Shown: in pieces, positions 1,478 to 17,706 of the stretch
Numbering within the stretch: the first letter of the stretch is position 1
Layout: each line of letters starts with the position of its first letter
Origin: Natronohydrobacter sp.
GTDB taxonomy: Bacteria; Pseudomonadota; Alphaproteobacteria; Rhodobacterales; Rhodobacteraceae
Length of the DNA stretch: 64,000 nucleotides
Assembly: GCA_020832585.1 (NCBI GenBank)
Contig: JAFIEL010000002.1
Span: 1-64,000 of the forward strand
Direction of reading: 5' to 3'
The notes under the pieces: model-generated
What the model saw: the letters and a program-made list of their open reading frames with translations, nothing else
Told to the model about the DNA's origin: nothing
The model's database searches: none
Program-made: the position numbers and the translations under genes

Positions 1478-2464
1478 TCACTTCAGATAGCGTTTTGCGA
1501 TCGATGCACCGACACTGTATTTCGGGTCCACCATGTTCCCAAGACGCACCTTGCCGCACATCGTCAGCAACATATAGGCGTCGATTTCGCTTTGTCCGGT
1601 TTCCTGTGCAACCCAGCGCACCAGTTCACGGTAAGCAATGCGTGTTGCGTCTTCCAGCGGGCGGGCGGATCCGATGAACATCATCATGTCCTCGGTTTCC
1701 AGTTGCGGCCAAGTGTTGCCATGCCCCTTGATAAGGTCGATCTGCAGTTCCACCGTGGCGGGTATTTCCAGTGCAACACCGCATAATTCCCCGTCCCCCT
1801 GAATTGCATGGCAATCACCAAGATACAGATACCCCCCCTCGCGATTCACGGGCAGATAGATGATCGCGCCGGGTGCCACATCGGGCATGTCCATGTTGCC
1901 GCCGTAGTAGTCGGGCTGAAGGGACGAGATCGCCTCGATTTCCGGCGAGGTGCCGATGGTTCCGATGAAGGGCTCATAGGGTAGCGTGACAGCATCAGAC
2001 CAATAGACGCCGTCCTTGTCGACATTGATCTTTTTCACCACTTCGGCCAGCGGCGCGTTCAGCATGGCGGTGTTTCCCGTGCCCACCAGACCGCCGAATT
2101 CGGGGATCAGGCAGGTGGTGCCAACAGGCTGCGCACCGCGCGGGGTGATGGAAATGATCCGCACGGCCAAAGCATCGCCCTTCTCCGCACCTTCCACATA
2201 AATCGGTCCGGTCTGCGGGTTGAGATAAGGAAAATTCAGGATCTCGGAGGGTTTGTCGCTTTCGCTGGTGATCTTGCCCTCGAACGCATCATGCGTTTCC
2301 ACCGAGACCACAGCGCCGGGTGCAACCTTGAGGACCGGGTCTACATAGGGTCCGTAGACATAGTGAAACTCACCCTGATCGGCGATGGTGATGGTGTGGC
2401 TTGCACCTGGCTTGCCTTTTGCCACACCCTTGCGCGCCATTAATGTCTGTTCCAGCCAGCTCAT
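1478..2464 (-). CDS. fmdA: Acetamidase/formamidase
   Basis: A 328-residue member of the FmdA_AmdA family, which hydrolyses formamide, acetamide and related short amides to ammonia and the acid in the cytoplasm. The family pattern is clear: SVETHDAFEG near residue 60, YYGGNMDMPD about residue 190, and LGDCHAIQGDGE about residue 220. The length is slightly above half that of fungal amidases and normal for this bacterial clade. It lies 33 nt after urtE in a run that also encodes an ABC importer and AmiC/AmiR-type regulators, which strongly suggests that the imported solute is a short-chain amide rather than, or as well as, urea. Confidence 0.85.
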   Translation of the reverse strand: MSWLEQTLMARKGVAKGKPGASHTITIADQGEFHYVYGPYVDPVLKVAPGAVVSVETHDAFEGKITSESDKPSEILNFPYLNPQTGPIYVEGAEKGDALAVRIISITPRGAQPVGTTCLIPEFGGLVGTGNTAMLNAPLAEVVKKINVDKDGVYWSDAVTLPYEPFIGTIGTSPEIEAISSLQPDYYGGNMDMPDVAPGAIIYLPVNREGGYLYLGDCHAIQGDGELCGVALEIPATVELQIDLIKGHGNTWPQLETEDMMMFIGSARPLEDATRIAYRELVRWVAQETGQSEIDAYMLLTMCGKVRLGNMVDPKYSVGASIAKRYLK

Positions 2465-2497
2465 GTGTCTAATCCTTCCCGGTTGGTCGTTTTGCGT

Positions 2498-3211
2498 TCA
2501 AATCGTCAGATAGCGCCGCACTTCGTCACGCGACGTGATTTCGCGTTGATCAAGACTGGCGACGATGCGGCCCTTTTCCATCACATAGCCCCGTTGTGCC
2601 ATAGACACGATCAAATCCAGATTCTGTTCGACCAGCAAGACCGCAACGCCGGTCTGTGCATTCAGGGCGCGCACATTGCGCGAGATGTCCTTGATGATCG
2701 ATGGCTGAATCCCTTCTGACGGTTCGTCCAGCAACATCAGGCGGGGATGGCCCATCATGGCGCGCGCGATGGCAAGTTGCTGTTGCTGGCCGCCAGACAA
2801 GGTGCCTGCACGCTGTCGGGCGCGTTCTTTCAGGATCGGAAAAAAGCGATGGACCATGTCGTAATCAGGCGCCCCGCGTGTGCGGCCTGCGACTTCGCCC
2901 ACCATCAGGTTTTCGCGCACGGTCAGCTCGGGGAAGACCTCTCGGCCCTGCGGAATGTACCCGACCCCGCGCAATGCGCGCTGGTTGGCGGGCAGGCCGG
3001 TCACGTCCTCGCCGAAAAGTCGGATCGTTCCGGCACTGGGTGCCAGCAATCCGGTCAGGGTACGGATCAAGGTGGATTTGCCGACACCATTGCGCCCGAT
3101 CACGGCAACGATCTCGCCCGCATCAATGGTCAGGTCCACGCCTTGCAGGACTTGCTCACCCCCGTAGCCGCTGAACAGGCCTTCGGTTTGCAACAGGGCA
3201 GGTTCACTCAT
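2498..3211 (-). CDS. urtE: Amide/urea ABC transporter ATP-binding protein (UrtE/LivF type)
   Basis: A 237-residue ATPase of the branched-chain amino acid/urea group. It has Walker A GRNGVGKST, signature LSGGQQQQLAIAR, Walker B LMLLDEPSEGI and the H-loop region VLLVEQN that is typical of LivF/UrtE. The start is taken at the ATG at 3211, which overlaps the end of urtD by 8 nt; an upstream in-frame Met lies inside urtD and is unlikely. It powers import together with UrtD. Confidence 0.88.
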   Translation of the reverse strand: MSEPALLQTEGLFSGYGGEQVLQGVDLTIDAGEIVAVIGRNGVGKSTLIRTLTGLLAPSAGTIRLFGEDVTGLPANQRALRGVGYIPQGREVFPELTVRENLMVGEVAGRTRGAPDYDMVHRFFPILKERARQRAGTLSGGQQQQLAIARAMMGHPRLMLLDEPSEGIQPSIIKDISRNVRALNAQTGVAVLLVEQNLDLIVSMAQRGYVMEKGRIVASLDQREITSRDEVRRYLTI

Positions 3212-3923
3212 CGGCGGCCCCCAGATAGATTTCCTGCACACCGGGATGCGCCGTCATTTCGTCGATACTGCCCTCTGCGAAGATGCTGCCCATATGCAGC
3301 ACGGTCACGCTTTGCGAAATCTGCTGCACGAAGGCCATGTCATGTTCTACCGCGAGAATGGTGATGCCACGGGCGTTCAGGTCATGCAGCATCTCGCCTG
3401 TCTTGCGCGTTTCATCGGGGGACATGCCGGCTGTCGGTTCGTCAAGCAGCAGCAGTTTCGGCTCTACGCCCACAGCCATGCCGATTTCCAGCCATTGCTG
3501 TTGCCCATGCGACAGCACGCCCGCGGCCGTTGTGGCCTCGTTGGACAGGTTTGTGAAATCCAGAACACGCCGGACAGTTTCACTCAGGCTGGCACCGTGC
3601 AGATGATGTTGGAATGCGACCTCGAGGTTTTGTCGCACGCTGAGCGCCTTGAAGATGCCGGGAACCTGAAACTTCACGCTTATGCCTTTGCGAATACGCT
3701 GGAAGGACCGCAAATGCGTGATGTCGTCACCGCCAAAGTAGATGGTGCCACTTTCAGGCGTGTGTTCGCCCAGCAGCAATCGGAAGAACGTTGATTTCCC
3801 TGCGCCGTTGGGCCCGATCAGACAATGCATTGCGCCCGCCTGCAGCGTAAAATCAATATTCCGGGCCACCGTTACGCCGCCAAAGCTCTTGTTCAGCTTT
3901 CTGACTTCGAGGATGGTCGTCAT
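3204..3923 (-). CDS. urtD: Amide/urea ABC transporter ATP-binding protein (UrtD/LivG type)
   Basis: A 239-residue ATPase with Walker A GPNGAGKST, signature LSHGQQQWLEIGMA (the LSHG form typical of UrtD) and Walker B LLLLDEPTAGM followed by AVEHDM. The start is the ATG at 3923, which overlaps the end of urtC in ATGA; the longer open frame upstream lies inside urtC in another frame. It pairs with UrtE in the inner-membrane importer. Confidence 0.88.
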   Translation of the reverse strand: MTTILEVRKLNKSFGGVTVARNIDFTLQAGAMHCLIGPNGAGKSTFFRLLLGEHTPESGTIYFGGDDITHLRSFQRIRKGISVKFQVPGIFKALSVRQNLEVAFQHHLHGASLSETVRRVLDFTNLSNEATTAAGVLSHGQQQWLEIGMAVGVEPKLLLLDEPTAGMSPDETRKTGEMLHDLNARGITILAVEHDMAFVQQISQSVTVLHMGSIFAEGSIDEMTAHPGVQEIYLGAADE

Positions 3924-5017
3924 TCGCGCCCCTTTCCGAAGATGCGTCCGATCTGACTCATCACTGTGAAAACCAGACCGTTGGGCGTGACCAGAACCGT
4001 GAACACCAGAAGCGCGCCCATGACCACAAGGGCATATTGGCTGCCGTAGATGGTCAGGGACTGAAAGCCTGCGATTACAATAAGGGTCCCCAGAAGCGTG
4101 GCCGTGATATCGCGCCTGCCACCGACGGCGACCCAGACGATGGGCAGGGCTGCCGCGGTCAGCCCCATGCTGGAGGGTGTGATATACTGCCCCCATGCCG
4201 TGTAGAGCACCCCGGACAGCCCCGCCAGCGCCCCGCCCAGCCCAAATGCCAGCATCTGATAAAGCCGGATGCCATAGCCCAGCATTTCGGTGCGTTCGGG
4301 GTTCTCGCGGATGGCCACCAGAACATTTCCGAACGGCGCGTTCAGCAACATGCGCAGCCCAAGATAGACCAGCACAACCATGCCAAGCAGGACGTAATAC
4401 AGTGTCGTGCCTGCATAGAGCAGGATTTCGCCGCCGAACCATGGCACTGTCAGCGGGGGCATGCCGGACATGCCGTTGAACCCGTTGAGCCGTGCCTCAC
4501 CGATGCGCCATTGCGGCCCTGCCGTCTGCGCCATGAAAGTTTCAAGAACCAGCGTCACCGACAGGGTCACGATCCCGATGAACACACCCTTGATGCGTCC
4601 GTAGAACATGAAATATCCGATCAGCAGCGCAAATGCGCCGCCCAGGGCAACAGCAAGCACAAGTGCCAGCCATGTCGCGCCAAAGGCCGAGCCGATATTG
4701 ATTGTGATCACACCATAGGCATACCCTGCCAGCCCGAAAAAGGCCGTTTGGCCGAAGCTGAGCGCGCCACAATATCCCCAGACCAGGCCCAGACCCATTG
4801 CCATGAAGGTCCAGACCAGAAAATAGGCCGCGTTGCCAACAGTATAATCGTTGTTGAAAGCCGGATAGAGGATCGCGGCCAAGAGCACCAGCGCGGCTGC
4901 AATCCAGAAACCGAGCCCACGTCCCATGGTTTGCGGCCCTTCCAGCCGCGAGAGCCACAAGCGCGGCCCTCTGCGCCCCGGCGCTTCGGTTGCATCAGGA
5001 AGTCTGATCTCGTTCAT
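3920..5017 (-). CDS. urtC: Amide/urea ABC transporter permease (UrtC/LivM type)
   Basis: A 365-residue integral membrane permease with about nine hydrophobic segments. It has the family core YCGALSFGQTAFFGLAGYAY about residue 80 and a conserved cytoplasmic stretch (IRENPERTEMLGY) about residues 240-255. I place the start at the ATG at 5017, which overlaps the urtB stop in ATGA; a GTG at 5026 is the longer option. It forms the channel with UrtB. Confidence 0.88.
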   Translation of the reverse strand: MNEIRLPDATEAPGRRGPRLWLSRLEGPQTMGRGLGFWIAAALVLLAAILYPAFNNDYTVGNAAYFLVWTFMAMGLGLVWGYCGALSFGQTAFFGLAGYAYGVITINIGSAFGATWLALVLAVALGGAFALLIGYFMFYGRIKGVFIGIVTLSVTLVLETFMAQTAGPQWRIGEARLNGFNGMSGMPPLTVPWFGGEILLYAGTTLYYVLLGMVVLVYLGLRMLLNAPFGNVLVAIRENPERTEMLGYGIRLYQMLAFGLGGALAGLSGVLYTAWGQYITPSSMGLTAAALPIVWVAVGGRRDITATLLGTLIVIAGFQSLTIYGSQYALVVMGALLVFTVLVTPNGLVFTVMSQIGRIFGKGRE

Positions 5018-5886
5018 TTCTGCCACCGCTTGATGAACGCCGACAGCCCGCCCGGCATGACCCGGATCACGATGATGACGGCGACCAGAAGTCCGATCTG
5101 GCCAAAAAGCTGCCCATACCAGGCCGTCAGCGCAGCCTTGATCACGGCAAGGATTGCCGCCGCAGGCGCTGCCCCAAGGAAAATATCGGCACCGCCCACA
5201 ACCACGGTGACGAAGCTTTCCACGATGAAGGTTGAGCCCATCGTGGGCACCATTGTCATTGTGGGTGCGTAAAGCCCACCCGCCAGACCTGCCAATCCTG
5301 CGCCCAGCCCGAAGGTCAGCGCGTATACGCGTCGTGTATCAACGCCCAAGGCGCGCGCTGTATCTGGTCGCTGAATGGTAGCGCGGGAAATGACACCGAA
5401 TCGGGTGCGATAGAACAACAGATACAGACCCAGAAGCAGCCCGATCGATGTTGCGAACAGCACCAGCCGGTAGATCGAGTAGGAGCGATCCCCGATGAGT
5501 GTGCTGCCGAGCGGCGTGCCGATGCCTTGCATCGTTGGCCCCAACAGGATCAGGACGCCCTGTGTTGCGATCAGGCTGATGCCCCATGTTGCGATGATGG
5601 AGTCCAGGGGCCTGTGATAGAGGTGGCGGATCACCGTGCGTTCGAGCGCCATTCCGATGATGGCTGCCGCGAGCGCGCCACAGGCGATCGCCATAGGTAA
5701 CGGCAGGCCGGCGCGCGCGGATGCGGCTGTGACATAGGCCCCGCACATGATGAATTCCCCATGCGCCAGATTGATAATCCCCATCATCCCGAAAATGACC
5801 GCAAGACCGGCACAGGAGATGACAAGAAACGCAAAGGCATCGCCAAACTGGTAAGAGATGGAAAAGATCGCCAGCAAGAATTCCAC
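5014..5886 (-). CDS. urtB: Amide/urea ABC transporter permease (UrtB/LivH type)
   Basis: A 290-residue inner-membrane permease. It has the LivH/UrtB signature GIINLAHGEFIMCGAY about residue 36 and a RATIQRPDTARALGVDT cytoplasmic loop about residue 170. The first codon is GTG at 5886, with a purine-rich GGGGGCG upstream. It follows urtA after 66 nt that contain a stable hairpin. Confidence 0.88.
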   Translation of the reverse strand: MEFLLAIFSISYQFGDAFAFLVISCAGLAVIFGMMGIINLAHGEFIMCGAYVTAASARAGLPLPMAIACGALAAAIIGMALERTVIRHLYHRPLDSIIATWGISLIATQGVLILLGPTMQGIGTPLGSTLIGDRSYSIYRLVLFATSIGLLLGLYLLFYRTRFGVISRATIQRPDTARALGVDTRRVYALTFGLGAGLAGLAGGLYAPTMTMVPTMGSTFIVESFVTVVVGGADIFLGAAPAAAILAVIKAALTAWYGQLFGQIGLLVAVIIVIRVMPGGLSAFIKRWQK

Positions 5887-5921
5887 GAACTGCGCCCCCG
5901 ATTGCGACAGTGGTTGGTCCA

Positions 5922-5940
5922 GGCAGGGTTTGTCCCTGCC
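5922..5940 (-). terminator. Intercistronic hairpin between urtA and urtB
   Basis: Inverted repeat GGCAGGG (5922-5928) and CCCTGCC (5934-5940) with a 5-nt loop, placed just after the stop codon of the binding-protein gene. On the coding strand there is no T-run, so partial attenuation or 3'-end stabilisation of the urtA message is more likely than full termination. Confidence 0.5.
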
Positions 5941-5952
5941 CGGAAGCGAAGG

Positions 5953-7191
5953 TTACTGTGCCGGTGGCGGGTTTGACGGCGTGTACTGTGCGCTGGGATC
6001 GTTCTGGGTCAGATCGCAGCCTGCATCGCCTAGCCAATAGGGGGTGATGTTTTCCCAGACCTCTGGAAAGGTGATCGAATGATCGCTTTCGACACGGGCC
6101 AGATAGATCGTGTGCGACATATGCTGACTTTTCGGGTCCAGACAGACATTGCCCGACGGGCCGTCAAAACACACATCCCCTTCGGCGATAACCGCGCGGA
6201 TCGCATCGTGATCGGTGCTTCCGGCGCGCTCCACCAGTTGCTTGTAGAGGTTGATCCCGATGTAGGAATTTGCGGCCTCCTGATTGATGTAGGGCTCATT
6301 GGGGAACATCGCCCGGAACCGTTCGACGAAATCGTTTGATTCGGGCGTGTCGATCTCTTCGATGTAGTTGGTCGTGACATACATGTTTGCCAGACTTGGG
6401 GGCGTGAAGCGCTTGTGCTCGTAGCCTTGCCCGACATTGACGGAGGATGCCATCGGCAACCCGACACTGGCCGAATTCGCCTGCTCATAGTAGGACGCCT
6501 GCGCGGCACCCACCAGAAGCGTCACGACAAAATCCGCGTCGGATTGCTGGATATTCTGGATCGTCTGCGAGAATTGCGACACGCCCAGCGGGATGAATTC
6601 CTCGCCGACCATCGTACCGCCCTGTTCGGCAACGATCTGGCGCACCCATTCGGCCGAAATCTGGCCAAAATTGTAGTCAGCGGCCAGCGTGTAGACATTC
6701 GGTCCATAGGTTTCCATCATCCATGGGATCAGCGTTGAAAACTGCTGTTCAGGCACAGCGCCCGTAACAATCATGTTTGCGTCGCACACACCGCCTTCGT
6801 ACTGGTTATTGTAGAAGGCCAGACCGTTGAACTGGTTCACGATAGGGCGATACGCTTCGCGTGATGCAGATGAGAACCCGGCAAAGACCACATCTACCTG
6901 ATCCTGCTGAAGCACCCGGCGCATGAATTCCTGATAACGGCGGTTGTCCGACTGGGTGTCATAGATCACCAGTTCGATCGGTCGCCCAGCGATCCCGCCT
7001 GCATCGTTGATTTCCTGCGTTGCAAGCCGGATCGCATTGACCTTGACGTTGGTCGCGGCGGCAAAATCGCCTGACTGATCTTCAAGCACGCCGATCTTGA
7101 TCGGACCATCCTGCGCCAACACTGGCCCAGAGGCCAGACAAGTGCCTGCAAGCAGTGCGGCGATAAGAGTACGATTATGATGTATTCTCAT
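5953..7191 (-). CDS. urtA: Amide/urea ABC transporter periplasmic binding protein (UrtA type)
   Basis: A 412-residue periplasmic type I binding protein with an N-terminal signal peptide of about 26 residues cleaved after VLAQ. The mature part begins IKIGVLEDQSGDFA, the usual start of the Peripla_BP_6/LivK fold. The start ATG overlaps the amiR stop (ATGA). It captures the amide or urea for the UrtBCDE importer. The adjacent formamidase favours a short amide as ligand. I could not determine specificity from sequence alone. Confidence 0.87.
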   Translation of the reverse strand: MRIHHNRTLIAALLAGTCLASGPVLAQDGPIKIGVLEDQSGDFAAATNVKVNAIRLATQEINDAGGIAGRPIELVIYDTQSDNRRYQEFMRRVLQQDQVDVVFAGFSSASREAYRPIVNQFNGLAFYNNQYEGGVCDANMIVTGAVPEQQFSTLIPWMMETYGPNVYTLAADYNFGQISAEWVRQIVAEQGGTMVGEEFIPLGVSQFSQTIQNIQQSDADFVVTLLVGAAQASYYEQANSASVGLPMASSVNVGQGYEHKRFTPPSLANMYVTTNYIEEIDTPESNDFVERFRAMFPNEPYINQEAANSYIGINLYKQLVERAGSTDHDAIRAVIAEGDVCFDGPSGNVCLDPKSQHMSHTIYLARVESDHSITFPEVWENITPYWLGDAGCDLTQNDPSAQYTPSNPPPAQ

Positions 7192-7844
7192 TTGGTCAGT
7201 CTCCTGTTGGTGGTGGTGGTTTGACTTCTATGGACATTGTTTTCGGCCCCCAGGCACTGTGCTGTCCCCGCTGCGCACGGATCTTGGGCCAGATATTCGC
7301 GCGCGATTTCTTCAACCGGAATGCGCCGGGTCATGGCGTCGGCACGCAGGCGTTGATAGGCTGCATCCAGATCGATTCCTTCGGTTGTTGTCAGCTTCAG
7401 CAACGCGGCAGTCACAGTGCGGCGCCCGGCAAGGCGCTGGCGCAGGCCCGTGATCTCGCGTTCGATCTGCTGGCGTCTTTCATATTCGTTCACCGCAAGA
7501 AGAAGCGCGGTGAACACACCTGAATTTCGCACAGGCTTCAGGATGTGACTTATGCAGCCCTGACGGACAACGCGTGTGAGCTGGCTGGGGGCCTCTGTCC
7601 CGATCAGCGCGATGCAGGGCAGCTTGCAGTAGCGTGTTGCATTGTGGTTGTTCAGGTCGGCATCGACGAAAACAACGTCATATTGCGAAAGATCGTGATC
7701 AGTGTGATCCTCGTGGTGATCGATCAGGTCAACGATCAACCCAAGCTTTCTCAGAACGCTTGCAAGAACCTGACGGTTGATGTCATCGGCATGCACGACA
7801 AGCGCACGCAGGCCGCGGAAATTCGTTTTCACCGCACTCTTCAT
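7188..7844 (-). CDS. amiR: ANTAR-domain antitermination regulator (AmiR/NasT-like)
   Basis: A 218-residue protein. The N-terminal pseudo-receiver (about 1-125) lacks a clear phosphorylatable Asp site. A short coiled coil rich in Arg, Gln and Glu follows (about 125-150), then a C-terminal ANTAR domain (about 150-205) with LKLTTTEGIDLDAAYQRLRA. This is the domain order of Pseudomonas AmiR, which binds paired hexaloop hairpins in leader RNA and prevents termination. The start ATG at 7844 overlaps the amiC stop (ATGA), so the two products are probably translationally coupled, as expected for an AmiC-AmiR complex. Its likely target is the leader at 9019-9129. Confidence 0.87.
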   Translation of the reverse strand: MKSAVKTNFRGLRALVVHADDINRQVLASVLRKLGLIVDLIDHHEDHTDHDLSQYDVVFVDADLNNHNATRYCKLPCIALIGTEAPSQLTRVVRQGCISHILKPVRNSGVFTALLLAVNEYERRQQIEREITGLRQRLAGRRTVTAALLKLTTTEGIDLDAAYQRLRADAMTRRIPVEEIAREYLAQDPCAAGTAQCLGAENNVHRSQTTTTNRRLTK

Positions 7845-9004
7845 GGCACCACCCGCAGATGATCCGGGCCGAGTCTGGTGTCGCTTTGCGTTGCGCTTGC
7901 CCATACAAGGTAGGGGTCAGGTCTGACCGGGCCGCGCTCTTCATAGAGAATGTCGAAGGTTCCAGCTGACGTCGATCTGCCAATGCGCGGCCGCATGCAG
8001 CAGTGCAGATTTTCCGGGTCGATTGTGACCAGACCCTGAGGGGCGGAAAACTTCAGCCCGCGCGACGCCGCGCGCACATCGGCAAAGGCAACGGACCCCG
8101 CCCTTGCGATAGAGCCAGCCAGCATATGAATGGCGATGTAGGCGGCTTCGGCATCTGCACAGGCATGCCCCAGATGGCCAAAACGCTGTTCCCAACTGGC
8201 GGTGAAACGGGCGTTTTCCTGAGACTTGATCGTCGAGAAATAGACCGAAGACGACAAATGCCCGGCGGCCGCATCACCGATAAGCGGCAGTTCGGCTTCG
8301 GACAGGCTGCAACTTGCGATAGGCAGTTCGGCGGGCTGGTCGATCCCGGCGGCTTCGGCGGCAGCGCGCAAAAGCCGAAAAAATGTATAGCAGCTATCGC
8401 CGATCAGAGTGTTGAATACAAAGTCGGGCCTATCGCGCACGATCTGCTCTGCCAGCAGCCCCAGATCGGTTTCGCCAACCGGAAAATATCGTTCACCCAG
8501 CACAGCGCCGCCAGAGTCCATCAGTGCTTCGCGCAGGATGCGATTGTTTTCCCATGCCCAGATGTAATTGGATCCGACCAGCCATCCGCGATTGCCGTGA
8601 TGGTTCAGCAAGTGGCGCGCAAGGGGAACGATATGCTGGTTGGGTGCCGCGCCAGTGTAGATGACATTGTCGCTGGTCTCGAACCCTTCATAATGCGAGG
8701 GATACCACAGAAGTGCGTCGTATTTTTCAAAGAGCGGAAGCACCTCCTTGCGGCTGGAGGAGGTATAGCAGCCCAGAATATGGGTCAGCTTCTGATCGAC
8801 AATCAAAGATTGAACCGCATCGCTATAGGCCGTTGTGACGCCGCCCGGATCCTTCATGACGGCGCGGAGTTTGAACGGAGTTGCCGGGTCAGTGTTAACC
8901 TCGTCCATGGCGAGCTGCGCACCTGCACAGATGGACTGCCCAATCGCGCCATAAGACCCTGTAGTCGAGATCACGATGCCGATGTCGAGCGCTTGTTTTT
9001 CCAT
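7841..9004 (-). CDS. amiC: AmiC-like amide sensor, cytoplasmic periplasmic-binding-fold protein
   Basis: A 387-residue protein with the Peripla_BP fold but no signal peptide (it begins MEKQALDIGIVISTTGSYG), so it is probably cytoplasmic. Segments CYTSSSRKEVLPLFEKYD and LLWYPSHYEGFE resemble AmiC and the urea-binding group. In Pseudomonas, AmiC holds AmiR inactive until an amide binds; the same role is inferred here because amiR overlaps it directly. The start is taken as the ATG at 9004, preceded by GGAAG five bases away; a GTG at 9007 is the alternative. It is the first gene of the operon, just downstream of the leader terminator. Confidence 0.85.
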   Translation of the reverse strand: MEKQALDIGIVISTTGSYGAIGQSICAGAQLAMDEVNTDPATPFKLRAVMKDPGGVTTAYSDAVQSLIVDQKLTHILGCYTSSSRKEVLPLFEKYDALLWYPSHYEGFETSDNVIYTGAAPNQHIVPLARHLLNHHGNRGWLVGSNYIWAWENNRILREALMDSGGAVLGERYFPVGETDLGLLAEQIVRDRPDFVFNTLIGDSCYTFFRLLRAAAEAAGIDQPAELPIASCSLSEAELPLIGDAAAGHLSSSVYFSTIKSQENARFTASWEQRFGHLGHACADAEAAYIAIHMLAGSIARAGSVAFADVRAASRGLKFSAPQGLVTIDPENLHCCMRPRIGRSTSAGTFDILYEERGPVRPDPYLVWASATQSDTRLGPDHLRVVP

Positions 9005-9018
9005 CACCGCTTCCGATC

Positions 9019-9065
9019 AAAAACAAAAAAACCCCCTGTGGCGACATCGTTGTCGCCAAAGGGGG
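9019..9065 (-). terminator. Leader intrinsic terminator with ANTAR-type hexaloop
   Basis: Read on the minus strand: CCCCC, then TTT, then the hairpin GGCGAC-AACGAT-GTCGCC (9057 to 9040), then GGGGG-type closing pairs and a run of T (seven T, G, five T). It is a textbook rho-independent terminator, yet it ends only about 15 nt before the amiC start. The 6-nt loop AACGAT has A at position 1 and G at position 4, the bases recognised by ANTAR proteins. Release by AmiR would allow the operon to be read. Confidence 0.85.
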
Positions 9066-9113
9066 CTATGCTGCCACGCGTATCATACGCTATATGGAAC
9101 GTTGAATTCAGGA

Positions 9114-9129
9114 GTAGCACTGTTGCTAC
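9114..9129 (-). ncRNA. Candidate first hairpin (P1) of the ANTAR leader
   Basis: Minus-strand GTAGC-AACAGT-GCTAC forms a 5-bp stem with a 6-nt loop, about 48 nt upstream of the terminator hairpin. Paired hairpins are expected for ANTAR targets. The loop has A at position 1 but A, not G, at position 4 (G is at 5), so the match is imperfect. A GCGTA-TGA-TACGC hairpin lies between the two elements. Confidence 0.5.
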
Positions 9130-9136
9130 GATGCCA

Positions 9137-9165
9137 AGGTGCTTTACGCTGCCGCAGCTTGTCAA
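9137..9165 (-). promoter_or_regulatory. Possible promoter of the amide operon
   Basis: Minus-strand TTGACA (9165-9160) matches the -35 consensus. Seventeen bases on, the -10 position reads GCACCT, a poor match, so an activator or other sigma factor would be needed. Transcription from here would begin just before the P1 hairpin, which is where an ANTAR leader should start. Confidence 0.3.
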
Positions 9166-16707: not shown

Positions 16708-17706
16708 TCAGGGCTGGCTCGTCACAAGCCGGGTCGGTTGCCCATTCAGCCAGGCATCAAGGTTTTCAACGGTTTGGCGATAGAAGACCTCGAACGTTTC
16801 CTGCACAGCATATCCAAGATGCGGGGTTGCCAGCAGGCGCGGCAAATGCCGTTCCGGGGCGTTGGCGGGCAAAGGTTCGTGATCAAATACATCAATCCCC
16901 GCCCCGCCTATCCGTCCGTTTATCAGCGCATCATGCAACGCTGCCTGATCGACAAGCGGACCGCGTGACGTATTGATCAACAGAGCATGGGACGGCATTG
17001 CCGCGATGTCCGATGCCGTGACGATCCCCCGCGTTGTCGGCCCAAGCACCAGATGCAGCGAGACAATATCGGCCGCATGAAAAAGCGCCTGTTTCTCCAC
17101 CATTTCCGCGCCGACAGCGGTTGCGCGCTCCGGGGTCAGATTGGGGCTCCAGGCGATCACTTTCATGCCGAAAGCCTGTGCTACAAGTGACATACGACTG
17201 CCGAGCCTGCCAAGACCCACAAGCCCGAGAGTGCGGCCGTAGAGAGCATTTCCCAGCCGCGTCTGCCACGCACCTGTTCGGATCGCCTCTGCCTCGGCCG
17301 GGATATGGCGCATCAGGCCCAGGATAAGCCCCCAGGCCAGTTCCACAGTCGCAAAGGCACCGTTGCCACTGCCATCGGTGGACATGACAGCTATGCCCAG
17401 CTCCGCCGCAGCCGCGCTGTCGAGCGTGCGGTTCTGACGCCCCGTGGCGGCAATCGCCTTGAGATTGGGCAGATTGCGCAACACCTCTGCGGGGAAGTCC
17501 GTCCGCTCACGCAGCAGGCAGAGGGCATCATATCCCGCAAGTTCCGTCGCTAGCCGTTCCGGGGGGATGCTTTGGGTCAGGAATGTCACCTCTGCACGAT
17601 CCGACAGGATTGACCAGTCAGCAAGACGGTGCGCAACGCCCATGTAATCGTCGAGAACGGCAATCCGGGCCTTGCGCGCATGTGTCAGCGGACGAAAATT
17701 CTGCAT
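16708..17706 (-). CDS. D-isomer-specific 2-hydroxyacid dehydrogenase
   Basis: A 332-residue NAD(P)-dependent oxidoreductase. It has the Rossmann motif GLVGLGRLGSR about residue 160 and the catalytic triad in its usual places: Arg in INTSRGPLVDQ, Glu in IDVFDHEPLP and His in TPHLGY. It resembles the phosphoglycerate dehydrogenase-like subgroup without the C-terminal regulatory domain. It ends 12 nt from the converging AbrB-type gene and has no operon partner apart from a small DUF1653 gene upstream. The substrate is unknown. Confidence 0.83.
   Translation of the reverse strand: MQNFRPLTHARKARIAVLDDYMGVAHRLADWSILSDRAEVTFLTQSIPPERLATELAGYDALCLLRERTDFPAEVLRNLPNLKAIAATGRQNRTLDSAAAAELGIAVMSTDGSGNGAFATVELAWGLILGLMRHIPAEAEAIRTGAWQTRLGNALYGRTLGLVGLGRLGSRMSLVAQAFGMKVIAWSPNLTPERATAVGAEMVEKQALFHAADIVSLHLVLGPTTRGIVTASDIAAMPSHALLINTSRGPLVDQAALHDALINGRIGGAGIDVFDHEPLPANAPERHLPRLLATPHLGYAVQETFEVFYRQTVENLDAWLNGQPTRLVTSQP

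Follow-up and report, generated by a model that had tools for sequence, protein, structure and literature searches.

An ANTAR-type antitermination leader upstream of amiC-amiR in which loop base 4 and AmiR residue 160 have probably changed together

Canonical ANTAR target loops need adenine at position 1 and guanine at position 4 (A1 and G4), and SELEX with NasR returned a C-G closing pair together with A1 and G4 (PMC7496416). The EutV-RNA structure shows G4 stacked on Tyr164 and bonded to Arg142, Lys149 and Glu160, and the E160A substitution in EutV brings a 60-fold loss of affinity; the contact rests on one 3.8 Å structure, in which the RNA direction, unreadable from the density, was set via genetic data (PMC8934654). 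The locus described here raises the question of how an ANTAR protein would read a leader in which position 4 is adenine in both hexaloops. In our judgement the leader is probably (at about 0.75) an ANTAR antitermination switch acting in cis, in which base 4 of the loops and AmiR residue 160 (EutV numbering) changed together.

The leader lies on the minus strand of the window, by which we mean the whole stretch of 64,000 nucleotides of Natronohydrobacter sp. (Rhodobacteraceae) that was analysed, as do all the features given below. It precedes an operon encoding amiC, amiR, a urea/amide transporter and a formamidase, and close relatives of its amiC are from Rhodobacteraceae. The amiC-like gene (7841-9004) encodes a Peripla_BP_5 protein with no signal peptide seen, presumed to be a cytosolic amide sensor, and a Shine-Dalgarno-like GGAAG (9014-9010) stands before its ATG at 9004. 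The second gene, amiR (7188-7904), for which the sequence-only reading had already named an ANTAR protein, encodes an AmiR-type pseudo-receiver (AmiR_N) joined to an ANTAR domain; such a protein beside a Peripla_BP_5 sensor is the arrangement that defines AmiC-AmiR pairs. The likely start of amiR is the ATG at 7844, and read from the coordinates this gives an ATGA overlap at 7844-7841 of the amiC stop with the likely amiR start, which suggests translational coupling of sensor and regulator. The remainder of the presumed operon (1478-7191) comprises a urtA-like binding protein, two permeases and two ATPases, which make up a urea/amide ABC transporter, and an FmdA/AmdA formamidase-acetamidase. 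A putative -35 element, TTGACA, lies at 9160-9165, upstream of the first hairpin (P1) of the leader; 82 of 95 relatives have a TTGAC 25-75 nt 5' of the P1 loop, usually at 41-50 nt, as against 4 of 95 shuffled sequences, and no clear -10 element was seen behind TTGACA in the window.

The 131-nt leader folds with an energy of -48.6 kcal/mol (z = -4.45), and none of 200 shuffled sequences folded equally well. P1, GUAGC(AACAGU)GCUAC at 9129-9114, has A1 and a C-G closing pair, with A rather than G at loop position 4. The linker hairpin GCGUA(UGA)UACGC (9078-9090) lies directly 5' of the antiterminator hairpin P2, GGC(AGCAUA)GCC at 9075-9064, which likewise carries A1 and A4. The intrinsic terminator (9025-9067) consists of a hairpin, 9067-9030, with the tetraloop ACGA at its apex, and a U-tract, 9031-9025; this GC-rich hairpin and T-run begin about 46 nt past P1. 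The two elements that the sequence-only reading had recognised, a six-base-loop hairpin upstream and a GC-rich hairpin with a T-run just before amiC, were both recovered, the latter with a gap to amiC of about 20 nt instead of about 15. That reading had also remarked that the upstream loop departs from consensus at position 4; the departure is real, and holds equally for P2. The GCC at 9066-9064, the 3' arm of P2, sits inside the 5' arm of the terminator stem, and in the published model the distal stem of P2 overlaps the proximal stem of the terminator (PMC3369936). The window leader therefore presents two six-base-loop hairpins upstream of a gene, A1 in both and a P2 arm shared with the terminator, all of which define ANTAR dual-hexaloop RNAs; it departs from them in having A4 in both loops, G4 being the majority state of the family, and in the length of its linker.

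The stems of P1 and P2 are 39 nt apart, beyond both the 5-12 nt of eut leaders and the 2-25 nt of a published search, and the distance is long in all 95 relatives. The linker hairpin was judged sequence by sequence, the register of the MAFFT alignment shifting in this region; each of the 17 close Rhodobacteraceae relatives tested has such a hairpin next to P2, its sequence varying from one to another, and in a few of these it was not clearly better than in shuffled linkers. In Rubrimonas (L009:3800-4000) the P1-P2 linker has grown, seemingly through a tandem duplication that took in the linker hairpin, with GTCCGGCTGCGCCGGA occurring twice. Published searches for ANTAR targets demanded G4 (PMC3369931) or short linkers (PMC8164766), so that leaders of this type can be missed. 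No Rfam family scored above its gathering threshold in the window, and the leader itself gave only chance-level matches.

P2 was absent from the sequence-only reading, which had instead placed the recognition hairpin inside the terminator, as GGCGAC(AACGAT)GTCGCC. The letters do permit an A1/G4 hexaloop on a 6-bp stem there, but GGCGACA(ACGA)TGTCGCC, in which one more A-U pair closes a tetraloop, is the better fold. Among the close relatives listed the apical loop is anything from 3 to 6 nt long and differs in sequence as well, and an A1/G4 hexaloop stands at the terminator apex in 2 of 96 minimum-energy structures, whereas P2 is kept nearly invariant in practically every relative. AmiR bound at the apex would moreover be expected to stabilise the terminator rather than open it. 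Comparative folding led us to reject the nested hexaloop as the recognition site; given its variability we take it to be a coincidence, and hold recognition by AmiR of AACGAU at the apex to be very improbable.

P1 and P2 were located in 95 leaders by stem rules blind to base 4, a few loci being placed by hand. A1 and the C-G closing pair were present in all 95 P1 hairpins, with compensatory changes at P1 pairs 2-4, and the P2 stem was GGC/GCC in at least 92 of the 95, a near-invariance to be expected where the same arm has to serve two pairing partners. RNAalifold predicted both P1 and P2 unprompted from 15 Rhodobacteraceae leaders, and neither any of 500 shuffles nor any slid register matched the P1/P2 covariation score. 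A covariance-model search matched the leader once in its own genome; a candidate further target at 17324-17427 of the window was a weak match (E 0.26) and is taken as chance. The leader was found in only 7 of 290 genomes of the family, every time directly upstream of an amiC orthologue. One could still suppose an ordinary terminator or attenuator free of AmiR control, its hexaloops arising by chance, the linker here being longer than that of the eut leaders; with dual hexaloops conserved and covarying in 95 leaders, and occurring strictly together with amiC-amiR, we give this idea almost no weight.

The proposed switch would place an operon that encodes its own sensor and regulator under the control of a leader in cis. 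Without inducer the terminator at 9067-9030 would form and transcription would stop before amiC. The ligand is assumed, by homology and from the operon content, to be an amide; its binding by AmiC would release AmiR, which would then bind the hexaloops of P1 and P2. As P2 takes the bottom of the 5' arm of the terminator, a stabilised P2 would shorten the terminator stem and detach it from the U-tract, and the opened terminator would allow read-through into amiC, amiR, the transporter and the formamidase. Gene content, the published AmiC-AmiR model, covariation in P1 and the strictly joint occurrence of leader and amiC support the general switch put forward by the sequence-only reading, while its nested A1/G4 site fell away. 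AmiR and its single RNA target would have changed together, base 4 being read differently or no longer as guanine, and the presence of one cis target per genome could make such drift or recoding possible.

An ungapped alignment of AmiR with EutV places Leu179 of the 238-residue AmiR frame (codon 7368-7370) at EutV Glu160, the contact of G4, and the window AmiR keeps the EutV-numbered residues Arg142, Tyr164, Arg168, Met172 and Arg175. Residue 160 and both loops were tabulated for 96 loci, the loops being assigned mostly by stem rules and some by eye. Where residue 160 is acidic, 66 of 78 P1 loops and 66 of 79 P2 loops have G4; where it is non-acidic, G4 occurs in 2 of 17 P1 loops and 1 of 17 P2 loops. 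Both loops lack G4 in 14 of the 17 non-acidic loci and in 3 acidic ones (L070, L092 and L093, which keep Glu160). Further exceptions are ten Bradyrhizobium-type loci that keep Glu160 with a P1 loop lacking G4, and four Rhodobacteraceae that keep Glu160 with A4 in P2 only. Lys149 was considered as the co-varying residue and rejected, being Ile or Val in most members of the family whether or not G4 is present.

Because related loci share ancestry, the association was also tested on trees. The AmiC tree implies three losses of the acidic residue (in the window clade, a Paracoccus group and a Mesorhizobium-type group), and parsimony on the AmiR N-terminal tree gave five state changes at residue 160. 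A sign test on independent pairs had no power with three events. A Pagel-type test of residue 160 against G4 gave likelihood ratios of 17.6 for P1 position 4 and 16.1 for P2 position 4, and in a parametric bootstrap, with null 95% points of 7.4 (P1) and 9.0 (P2), the observed values were reached in 0 of 120 and 0 of 100 simulations (p ≤ 0.01 each). Against the other loop positions the ratio for residue 160 was at most 6.1. On the AmiR N-terminal tree the values were 23.3 and 20.3, with other positions reaching up to 8.2, and they were weaker (13.6 and 12.4) when hand-placed or long-branch loci were dropped. In a scan of ANTAR columns 140-184, whose scores are to be read as single-column values, residue 160 was the top variable column for each loop, with residues 176 (P1) and 156 (P2) close behind. 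Position 4 of P1 and position 4 of P2 also co-vary with each other (19.7 and 22.7), strongly so, as a single protein reading the two loops would lead one to expect. Loss of the acidic residue and loss of G4 thus appear to be linked beyond shared ancestry, over few independent events. No report of co-variation between residue 160 and loop base 4 was found in the open-licence papers searched; reports elsewhere are possible.

What this linkage means for recognition can be read in several ways. Specificity may have switched in a coupled manner several times, leaving a natural ANTAR-RNA recognition code of orthogonal pairs; to this we give even odds. From sequence comparison the clade-specific pairs may be A4 with Leu or Gln, U4 with Pro, and U4, A4 or C4 with Tyr or His. 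Selection may on the other hand merely have been relaxed, AmiR binding the shape of the loop (A1, the closing C-G pair, Tyr164 and Met172) while base 4 and residue 160 drift to no new specificity. The replacing bases do vary between and within clades (A, U and C), as does residue 160 (L, Q, H, P, G and Y), and Tyr164, Arg168, Met172 and Arg175 are retained, all of which fits drift. It is harder to reconcile with drift that A4 stands in 8 of 8 loops of the window locus, L004, L005 and L009, and U4 in all 8 loops of the Pro160 group, in each case with other positions changing, or that the two loops co-vary so strongly at position 4; relaxation is accordingly the less probable account, if one with a real chance of being right.

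A shift of recognition by one base in these clades, with G5 as the flipped base at least in P1, seems unlikely to us. It would draw on the window P1 loop, AACAGU, and on the presence of G5 in 14 of the 15 G4-lacking P1 loops whose AmiR has a non-acidic residue 160, as against 18 of 68 G4 loops. In P2, however, G5 occurs in only 7 of 16 such loops and is missing from the window loop AGCAUA, and at position 5 the likelihood ratios, 6.1 and 5.6, are weak and lie inside the spread of the null simulations.

Relatives close to the window locus form a graded series, and they bear on the proposed joint change of base 4 and residue 160. L008 and L010 have Glu160 and A4 in P2 only, L006 and L149 have His160 with G4 and A4, and the relatives with Leu or Gln160 have A4 in both loops; near the Paracoccus group, L092 and L093 have non-G loops with Glu160 retained. 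This gradation suggests that the RNA changed before the protein. We also considered whether a need for insulation from paralogous ANTAR proteins drove the change. The window's own genome does encode two further ANTAR proteins, both with Glu160; the genomes of L005 and L009 encode one ANTAR protein each and show the same change, so that insulation from a paralogue is not required, and it was rejected. One of the further proteins belongs to a second AmiC-AmiR pair (L114:4876-6650, contig C114), whose ANTAR domain is canonical (Glu160, Lys149) and which is followed by another urea-type binding protein; a terminator-like hairpin lies upstream, and no clear dual hexaloop was seen there. The other (L115:3495-5269, contig C121) is NasT-like and lies beside NasS/NrtA-type proteins.

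The leader is homologous to canonical ANTAR antiterminators while lacking G4 and exceeding published linker lengths. It resembles the Pseudomonas aeruginosa AmiC-AmiR/amiE system in its amide-sensing AmiC homologue, its AmiR of pseudo-receiver and ANTAR domains, its hexaloop hairpins before a leader terminator and its link to amide metabolism. There the leader precedes amiE, whereas here it precedes amiC-amiR, the urea/amide-type ABC transporter and FmdA/AmdA; the loops of the amiE leader reportedly have A1 and G4 (PMC3369931) where this leader has A4 in both, and residue 160 is Glu in the AmiR of PDB 1QO0 and Leu here. With Enterococcus faecalis EutV/eutP it shares P1 and P2, a P2 that overlaps the terminator stem, A1, and the five contact residues retained in the window AmiR. 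Both G4 and Glu160 are missing, however, and the natural A4 is the very change that weakens induction when introduced into one or the other loop of eutP (PMC3369931). The linker here, 39 nt with a hairpin of its own, also differs from the 5-12 nt of eut, and control, presumed here to run via AmiC, is by phosphorylation in EutV. NasR/nasF likewise has two hexaloop hairpins and a terminator, with a nitrate-sensing NIT domain and canonical G4.

Co-variation of residue 160 with base 4, far above that with other loop positions, provides independent support for the G4 contact, and coupled switches, if true, would add evolutionary support for position 4, not 3, as the flipped base of the EutV-RNA structure. 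A contact by which a protein recognises its RNA appears to have been rewritten in evolution, the base in both hairpins changing in step with the amino acid that reads it. The natural A4, U4 and C4 pairs make the recognition code directly testable, and orthogonal ANTAR-RNA pairs, if real, would be tools for RNA-level gene control.

Other leaders in the collection show further variation. In Bradyrhizobium-type leaders (L040, L044, L047, L057, L059, L061 and others) the P2 loops start with G (GAGGGC, GAAAGC); these loci keep Glu160, most of their P1 loops lack G4, and they carry a long CCAAC...GTTGG linker hairpin. L030 (a Terriglobia MAG) and L122 have Leu instead of Tyr or Phe at AmiR residue 164, the position whose EutV counterpart stacks on base 4. 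A more distant AmiC-AmiR group (L100-L110) has GGC(N6)GCC upstream of an amiC-like gene, with loops such as AUUCGC and AUCCGC, that is with C4 and G5 though residue 160 is mostly Glu or Asp, possibly reflecting another recognition register.
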